From: Candidatus Hydrothermus pacificus
GTDB taxonomy: Bacteria > Hydrothermota > Hydrothermia > Hydrothermales > Hydrothermaceae
Direction: 5' to 3'
Assembly (NCBI GenBank): GCA_002011615.1
Contig: MTOH01000005.1
Span: forward strand, 1 to 47,197
Length of the DNA: 47,197 nt
Below are positions 7,325-8,447 of this stretch, piece by piece (position 1 is the stretch's first letter; each line of letters starts with the position of its first letter). The notes beneath the pieces were generated by a model. The model was not told the DNA's origin and ran no database searches. It saw nothing but the letters and a program-made list of their open reading frames with translations. Position numbers and translations under genes: made by a program.

Positions 7325-7352
7325 TAATCTCGTTTTTTGAGTTTGTTTTAAG

Positions 7353-7391
7353 AAGTAAAAACTTAAAAGTAAAATCTAAAAGGTAAAAAGT
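7353..7391. repeat. Degenerate 7-bp tandem repeat, A-rich tract
   Basis: In the 184-bp gap between convergent genes a GT or CT dinucleotide recurs exactly every 7 bases, at 7355, 7362, 7369, 7376, 7383 and 7390, embedded in A-runs. The units look like AAGTAAA, AACTTAA, AAGTAAA, ATCTAAA and AGGTAAA. This resembles the short tandemly repeated repetitive (STRR) heptamers of cyanobacteria in form. Confidence 0.7.
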
Positions 7392-7406
7392 TTTTATTTT
7401 CTCTCT

Positions 7407-7441
7407 ATAAGCCATCAGCTATACGCCATAAGCCAGGGCCG
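7407..7441. repeat. Degenerate 7-bp tandem repeat, ATAAGCC tract
   Basis: Five in-phase heptamers: ATAAGCC, ATCAGCT, ATACGCC, ATAAGCC and a decayed AGGGCCG. The first GC recurs at 7411, 7418, 7425 and 7432. The ATAAGCC unit is identical to units inside the nearby RNase P RNA gene. Confidence 0.75.
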
Positions 7442-7472
7442 AAGGAGCTTAATAATTTTGACTTTCTTTTTA

Positions 7473-7507
7473 CCCCAATCCCTGACTCCTAATCCCTGAA
7501 TTTCAGC
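7473..7507. repeat. Degenerate 7-bp tandem repeat, CCCCAAT tract
   Basis: Units CCCCAAT, CCCTGAC, TCCTAAT and CCCTGAA occupy 7473-7500, with a weaker TTTCAGC to 7507, ending just before the stop codon of the convergent regulator gene (7509-7511). Period is exactly 7 but the unit differs from the two tracts to the left. Confidence 0.7.
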
Positions 7508-7508
7508 T

Positions 7509-8063
7509 TTATTTAATCAACACGTCTTTATAAGGAGGGCAGACTATATTTATAAAGGAAAGGGCATGGTCGGTGTCATTTTTGAAGTAGTGGGTTTTAT
7601 TACATTTAAAGGAATAACTTTCGCCCCTTTTTACTTTTATTTCCCTTCCACCGAGTTTGATGGTTAGTTCACCTTTTAAAACATAACCTCCCTCTTCTCC
7701 GGGATGCGGGTCCTCGGTTGATGTTTTTATGCCTGATTGAAGTTCAACATAGTAAATGTCAAAATTTCTTTCCCTTACAGGGGTTAAGAGTATCACCTTT
7801 ATCCTGGTGGAACGGGGAGTGAAATCTATAAAGTCTCTCCATGTAAAATGAATGTTTTTTTCCAGAGTTTCAGAAAAAAAATCAATTATTGAAACCCCCA
7901 GAGCGTCAAGAACTTTTTTCAATGTATCTATTTTGGGAATAATTAATCCTTTTTCAAGTTGCGAAATATAACTCTTGCTCACGCCTGCTCTTTGTGCGAG
8001 TTCTGTTATTTTTAATCCTCTTTGTTTTCTGATGTTTTTTATTTTTTCAGAAATATATTCCAT
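7509..8063 (-). CDS. XRE-family regulator with C-terminal cupin domain
   Basis: This is a 184-residue protein. Residues 1-60 are a lambda-repressor-type helix-turn-helix (ITELAQRAGVSKSYISQLEKG) and about 105-180 form a small cupin barrel (HPGEEGGYVLKGEL ... GESYSFKCNKTHYFKN). This XRE-cupin architecture is a common ligand-sensing transcriptional regulator design, as in PuuR-like proteins. The ligand is unknown. The ATG at 8061-8063 is only 9 nt beyond the 3' end of RNase P RNA and has no Shine-Dalgarno sequence or room for its own promoter, so the gene is probably expressed by read-through of rnpB. The N-terminus fits the fold without extension, so a different start is unlikely. Confidence 0.85.
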   Translation of the reverse strand: MEYISEKIKNIRKQRGLKITELAQRAGVSKSYISQLEKGLIIPKIDTLKKVLDALGVSIIDFFSETLEKNIHFTWRDFIDFTPRSTRIKVILLTPVRERNFDIYYVELQSGIKTSTEDPHPGEEGGYVLKGELTIKLGGREIKVKRGESYSFKCNKTHYFKNDTDHALSFINIVCPPYKDVLIK

Positions 8064-8072
8064 TTTGATTAG

Positions 8073-8447
8073 AGGACCGGGTCCCGTAAGCCGGATTCTG
8101 TTCTAAGCGGTCATCTATCTATGCGACTACCCGGGGGTTCATGGGTGCGGGCAACACCCTTTACCCCCCTTATTTGTCTTGCTCCGGGTGGGGGTTGCCA
8201 TGCATGCGGTTGCCCGCATGCATCGTGGGTTCTTACCCCACGGTTTCACCCTTACCCCGACAGAGTCGGAGCGGTCTGGTTTCTGTGGCCCTTTCCGTCT
8301 ATCCTGCCTCGCGACAGAATAGCCTCCCTTTTTCAGGGAGCACCCTGCCCTTCAGAGTCCGGACTTTCCTCAGGTAACTCATAAGCCACTGGCTATAAGC
8401 CATTTGTGTAACCTATGGGTCACCTGCGACCGCTCGAACCCGGTCCT
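8073..8447 (-). ncRNA. rnpB: RNase P RNA, bacterial class A
   Basis: The catalytic RNA of RNase P, which matures tRNA 5' ends. The minus strand carries the universal GAGGAAAGUCCGGAC block, ACAGAAA, and the 3' block AGAACAGAAUCCGGCUUAC. P1 pairs AGGACCGGG at the 5' end with CCCGGUCCU at the 3' end; P2 pairs AGCGGUC with GACCGCU; P3 pairs AGGUGAC with GUUACCU. These pairings set the ends at 8447 and 8073, giving about 375 nt. Helix P18 seems absent, since the CGGGUAG segment runs almost directly into AUAGAUGACCGC. The tip of the P3 arm contains heptamer repeats. Open reading frames on the opposite strand here are spurious. Confidence 0.95.
8381..8408. repeat. 7-bp repeat inside the P3 arm of rnpB
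   Basis: Plus-strand units ATAAGCC (8381-8387), ACTGGCT, ATAAGCC (8395-8401) and ATTTGTG are in exact 7-bp phase and share ATAAGCC with the tract at 7407-7441. In the RNA they can fold into a small hairpin (UGGCU, 3-nt loop, AGCCA) at the end of P3. Confidence 0.65.

Follow-up and report, generated by a model that had tools for sequence, protein, structure and literature searches.

The RNase P RNA gene (rnpB) on contig MTOH01000005.1 of Candidatus Hydrothermus pacificus (assembly GCA_002011615.1), considered here within a window comprising the whole analysed stretch of 47,197 nucleotides, raises the question of how heptamer units could come to lie in the P3 arm of an essential ribozyme, and whether they belong to a repeat family of the same genome (2.06 Mb, about 95% complete, hereafter G000). 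The occurrence of a heptamer tract in P3 of rnpB is confirmed as a real observation. The explanation favoured here, to which a probability of roughly 0.7 is attached, is that a repeat family specific to this lineage expands by slippage of its unit, enters hairpin loops from time to time, and is tolerated where a peripheral stem is thereby lengthened.

The gene can be assigned to the bacterial class A RNase P RNAs, since it exceeds the curated cut-off of RF00010 and covers the whole model, and it is the sole match to this model in G000. The RNA displays an otherwise complete class A fold, with a 32-nt insertion that the RF00010 alignment locates in the P3 loop, between AGGUGAC and GUUACCU, i.e., in the stem to which the units had originally been attributed. 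As a result of the comparison with the four nearest available genomes (G001-G004), which belong to the same order as G000 and to another family, P3 measures 54 nt in G000 versus 20, 20, 25 and 29 nt in these order-mates. The features of the arm are the following:

8071..8445, minus strand: rnpB, class A RNase P RNA (RF00010 224.4 bits, cut-off 100, model 1-367)
8371..8426, minus strand: extended P3 arm (54 nt lying between GGTCGC and GAGG; folding energy predicted at -25.5 kcal/mol, z about -5.5)
8374..8407, minus strand: putative 34-bp insertion (one GTAAC copy and the heptamer tract), whose excision leaves a 9-bp P3
8374..8378, plus strand: GTAAC, copy 1 of a 5-bp direct duplication
8408..8412, plus strand: GTAAC, copy 2 of the 5-bp direct duplication

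Excision in silico of the 34 bp (8374-8407) yields CAGGTGACC-CATA-GGTTACCTG, a 20-nt P3 whose hairpin has 9 bp, folded as a 24-nt joined form and similar in size to the P3 of the order-mates. The end points of the 34-bp insertion are not unique, and the excised form represents a putative reconstruction of P3 as it may have stood before the insertion.

According to the original prediction, the heptamers of rnpB follow one another in perfect 7-bp phase. The units do occur at the positions assigned to them (ATAAGCC at 8381, ACTGGCT at 8388, ATAAGCC at 8395 and ATTTGTG at 8402), but no more than two of them agree with each other, and the perfect phase therefore rests on two exact ATAAGCC copies located 14 bp apart. 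Read on the plus strand in the phase of the family described below, the insert becomes CATAAGC CACTGGC TATAAGC CATTTGT, two exact members and two loose ones, so that a short tandem repeat of unit 7, made of two exact units and their degenerate neighbours, extends inside rnpB from 8380 to 8408. The tract of the same unit announced in the vicinity is also present:

8380..8400, plus strand: heptamer units CATAAGC-CACTGGC-TATAAGC in rnpB (matrix score 19.6 bits; pattern match with 3 mismatches)
7406..7433, plus strand: intergenic (YATAAGC)4 tract, TATAAGC CATCAGC TATACGC CATAAGC, about 970 bp from the rnpB units

The isolated word ATAAGCC shows no enrichment across the window (8 occurrences versus 6.1 expected, a number reached in 23 of 100 shuffles) and proves nothing on its own; single-word enrichment was consequently dropped as evidence. 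Paired ATAAGCC words, 0-14 bp apart, occur at 6 places in the 2.06 Mb, compared to 0 for the reversed-pattern control, and all these places other than rnpB consist of phased heptamer tracts in spacers. With a position matrix built from 109 units of the other tracts, rnpB being excluded, the rnpB site reaches 19.6 bits and ranks as the ninth merged site in a scan of 893,554 windows, under the true tracts, the next site reaching 17.5 bits; its two good units score 11.5 and 10.0 bits. An initial period scan performed at strict thresholds had yielded almost nothing.

The heptamer of rnpB belongs to (YATAAGC)n, a degenerate family occurring in the spacers of G000. A search for three units with at most 3 mismatches in 60 genomes, in which overlapping windows of a single tract are counted separately, returned 55 matching windows in G000, including one in rnpB, and none with the reversed pattern, which demonstrates the genome-wide dispersal of the repeat. 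The order-mates G001-G004 contain 0, 0, 0 and 1 windows, respectively, and more distant members of the phylum up to 12, some match being found in 17 of the 60 genomes, G000 included. The reversed control exceeds the count in certain more distant members (36 versus 12 in G043, 45 versus 0 in G054), which would fit heptamer tracts of another sequence in these genomes. In a sample of 447 kb made of the window and twenty stretches, three of which (L057, L058 and L061) were picked for containing tracts, the self-identity of the 19,393 bases lying outside the open reading frame mask amounts to 0.318 at lag 7, 0.317 at lag 21 and 0.310 at lag 14, with 0.284-0.307 at the other lags; coding DNA exhibits a period of three only. 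A scan of named genomes, from which the G000 records were possibly excluded, for GCTTATRGC ahead of the conserved GAGGAAAGTCCGG gave 26 stretches, and by eye the P3 arms inspected contain the motif once each, within a hairpin, with no phased tract. The original prediction had regarded a P3 aligned free of insertion, together with the absence of the heptamer phase from close relatives, as counting against it: the alignment does show an insertion, and the second point applies in a weak sense, the nearest available relatives, which belong to another family of the order, lacking these heptamers. Since G000 carries (YATAAGC)n and these relatives do not, the result speaks for lineage-specificity rather than for refutation, and the family is most likely lineage-specific.

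Repeat inserts in rnpB are more widespread than originally supposed, a conclusion supported by four other genes of the phylum. Among 147 phylum genomes, 121 possess an RF00010 match, and 114 rnpB genes were checked for tandem periodicity: at a threshold of at least 14/18, period 7 occurs in 2 genes (0.5 expected) and period 8 in one (0.25 expected), while the other periods from 5 to 12 occur in none. The four genes contain short-unit tracts which recur in their own genomes, with one control uninformative and one case weak. In G118, AACYATN units are found in each arm of an extended hairpin situated close to the 3' end of the RNA; this genome has 78 such windows, five of them in rnpB, for a control of 3, compared to 0 and 3 windows in its congeners G117 and G116, and the 3'-loop insert is lacking in both of the congeners examined. 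The P3 of G119 contains the octamer TKGAACCC (28 genome windows, 2 in rnpB, control 0), and that of G125 contains AACGCCR, in an insert absent from four of five aligned congeners, the fifth (L206) having no recognisable P3. The heptamer CACCAGN of G111 (7 genome windows, 2 in rnpB, control 0) lies in the P16-P17 region. The congeners of G125 and G118 with and without insert offer a natural before-and-after comparison with respect to both the origin of the repeat and the tolerance of RNase P RNA. In addition, the RNase P RNAs of L188, L190 and L204, from one family of the phylum, are very long (743-791 nt), several of their loops containing insertions which reach about 200 nt.

P3 with its insert is predicted to fold as a single long arm, at -29.4 kcal/mol when flanks are included (z -6.0) and at -25.5 kcal/mol in a second prediction (z about -5.5). 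The idea that the insert forms its own small hairpin, put forward in the original prediction and also the first reading here, was dropped after folding pointed to an extended P3; the insert is thus predicted to lengthen this arm instead of folding alone. The inserts of G118, G119 and G125 are likewise predicted as extensions of the native stem, with z values of -8.7, -4.2 and -3.8.

Besides rnpB, 22 tracts were delimited in the sampled G000 loci. In 10 of them, a perfectly paired hairpin of 6 bp or more starts within a few bases 3' of the tract, compared to 1,451 of 26,930 noncoding points (5.4%; P about 7e-8); for two or more of the remaining tracts, the border had been extended into the hairpin. 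On the 5' side, a hairpin accompanies 4 of the 22 tracts; a looser count finds one downstream of 13 tracts and upstream of 10, versus 31% of noncoding stretches. The adjacent hairpins are built from varied stems and frequently border on an AGGAGG of Shine-Dalgarno type or on the end of a tRNA. Two paralogous leaders (C2:107.9 kb and C2:117.2 kb) are nearly identical except for exactly 7 bp, corresponding to one unit, and this pair shows that the copy number of a tract can change by one whole 7-bp unit.

Some additional observations concern these loci. The short hairpins abutting Shine-Dalgarno-like sites and tRNA ends may correspond to RNA-stability or processing signals. In L118 (859-1066), a heptamer tract is located between a thiamine pyrophosphate (TPP) riboswitch aptamer and the hairpin beside the start of the next gene. 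An A-rich heptamer-like array of the AAAAGTA type directly precedes the YATAAGC tract in three spacers (window 7347-7500, L049 and L121), the window spacer containing CCCTGAC/TCCTAAT units as well. A distance of about 7 nt separates the 3' end of rnpB from the ATG of a HTH_3/Cupin_2 regulator gene that follows it on the same strand (7509-8063, minus), and no obvious ribosome-binding site is seen between them (window 8064-8071).

Taken together, these data would fit a series of events in which a P3 hairpin of 9 bp gained about 34 bp of tract in its 3' arm after the split from the order-mates. The addition may have proceeded by slippage or by microhomology-driven template switching at the hairpin during replication, leaving the GTAAC duplication, and template switching or slippage at hairpins is the favoured route by which the family may reach P3 and other new sites. 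The tracts themselves would grow by slippage, 7 bp at a time, in agreement with the pair of paralogous leaders. The insert would have been retained owing to the position of the P3 tip outside the catalytic core and to the predicted co-folding of the added sequence as a longer P3, and selection would remove those inserts that disturb the core of rnpB. The effect of the insert on RNase P is most likely none or slight. The same process has probably operated independently in other members of the phylum, each with its own 7- or 8-mer family. The broader idea that many of these members harbour an active, lineage-specific process writing degenerate 7- and 8-mers at DNA hairpins, with RNase P RNA loops as recurrent landing sites, appears rather unlikely; such a process would perhaps be templated instead of simple slippage, because each genome uses one common unit and genomes of a single family use different ones.

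Several facts weigh against the entry of a repeat family into P3. Good matches are limited to two rnpB units, the middle one fitting at 4 of 7 positions; CATAGGT, which forms the 5' arm of the extended stem, reaches 1.1 bits and is therefore not clearly a tract; and the lag-7 self-identity of this rnpB stays below threshold (under 13/18). The length of 34 bp is no multiple of 7. The empty P3 site is deduced, the relatives compared for P3 length being order-mates of another family. Over the 114 rnpB genes the enrichment is small (3 genes for periods 7 and 8 versus about 0.75 expected), the AACGCCR count of G125 is uninformative since its reversed control is as high (87 versus 81 windows), and the parallel cases were chosen for their repetitive look, so that they establish recurrence and not its rate. 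Three points would suit an ordinary variation in P3 length, in which stem growth produced the arm and the resemblance to the heptamers arose by chance, aided by a unit that is partly palindromic (GGCT-ATA-AGCC): P3 length does vary among the rnpB genes of the phylum, according to a crude parser whose lengths are a rough guide (30 of the 114 genes skipped, no arm in 25 more), the arm is predicted to fold well, and the close unit matches number only two. Two exact in-phase heptamers of the genome's own family, an arrangement with six occurrences in 2.06 Mb and none in the control, are nevertheless hardly expected from such growth, nor are the ninth rank of rnpB among the merged matrix sites and the parallel genes carrying each genome's own unit, and this coincidence seems unlikely.

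A selected function, in which a longer P3 stabilises the RNase P RNA or binds a partner and the heptamers provide raw material, would account for the predicted extension of a native stem by all four tested inserts (z -3.8 to -8.7) and finds a parallel in the Nostoc trnL intron and its P6b stem (PMC3488679, PMC4476775). However, each lineage has inserts of another sequence and length at another place, congeners manage without them, and the keeping of harmless inserts only would explain the folding equally well, which renders such a function distinctly unlikely. That tracts abut hairpins, that a 5-bp duplication surrounds the insert and that composite A-rich and YATAAGC arrangements recur could evoke a miniature element resembling the repetitive extragenic palindromic (REP) sequences, comprising the tract with its adjoining hairpin and moved by a Y1 transposase. 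Yet the stems vary from place to place, the tracts have no fixed ends, and Y1_Tnp (PF01797), the only transposase family searched, was not detected in G000, G118 or G119, all of which carry inserts; REP-type transposition is therefore not needed, the mobility considered in the original prediction stays hypothetical, and the element is very improbable. Even less credible, to the point of being nearly negligible, is an assembly artefact in this metagenome-derived contig: short repeats are able to mislead assembly, but the insert is shorter than the usual read length, its flanks consist of unique rnpB sequence, and comparable inserts occur in other assemblies.

In this respect, short tandemly repeated repetitive (STRR) sequences were reportedly described by Vioque in 1997 (NAR 25:3471) in the RNase P RNA of heterocyst-forming cyanobacteria. 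Both cases have in common that short tandem repeats of the genome occur inside rnpB; in G000, however, the units are degenerate, have a sequence proper to this genome and reside in P3, and the host probably lies outside the cyanobacteria, for which far more genomes exist than the 147 of this phylum. The central proposal of the original prediction, a short repeat within a tolerated loop of an essential ribozyme, holds for a family of the genome itself, apparently independently of cyanobacteria. The open-licence literature searched contains no report of rnpB inserts of short repeats outside cyanobacteria, which is no proof of absence. Two reports on the Nostoc trnL (UAA) group I intron describe degenerate heptanucleotide repeats which pair as the P6b stem, the length of which varies with the number of repeat copies (PMC3488679, PMC4476775). 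There, degenerate heptamers of a structured RNA base-pair and lengthen a peripheral stem, as is predicted for G000, but the G000 case concerns RNase P RNA and another unit, and a single arm, the RNA 3' arm, clearly scores as repeat family, whereas both arms do so in G118. Abundant intergenic heptamers are also shared with the marine Beggiatoaceae, in which TAACTGA direct repeats near gene starts are exact and related heptamers rarely repeated, while the tracts of G000 are degenerate and one of them lies in rnpB (PMC4679880). Similarly, the GGGAATC and GGGGA(C/T)T heptamers of Xanthomonas and Nostoc are over-represented in intergenic DNA, with lengths differing between close relatives, and are distinguished from the G000 family by being G-rich and quadruplex-forming; the accessible part of this source mentions no RNase P case (PMC4692102). 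In most genomes surveyed by the latter two studies, heptamers outnumber the other classes of repeats of 5-11 nt, and slippage tied to the stretch held by the polymerase has been put forward (PMC4679880, PMC4692102). Compared to these systems, the rnpB of G000 widens a phenomenon known from cyanobacteria, both as STRR sequences in rnpB and as heptamers in the Nostoc trnL intron, and suggests that the invasion of an essential ribozyme by repeats is not a cyanobacterial oddity and can recur wherever a heptamer family is abundant.
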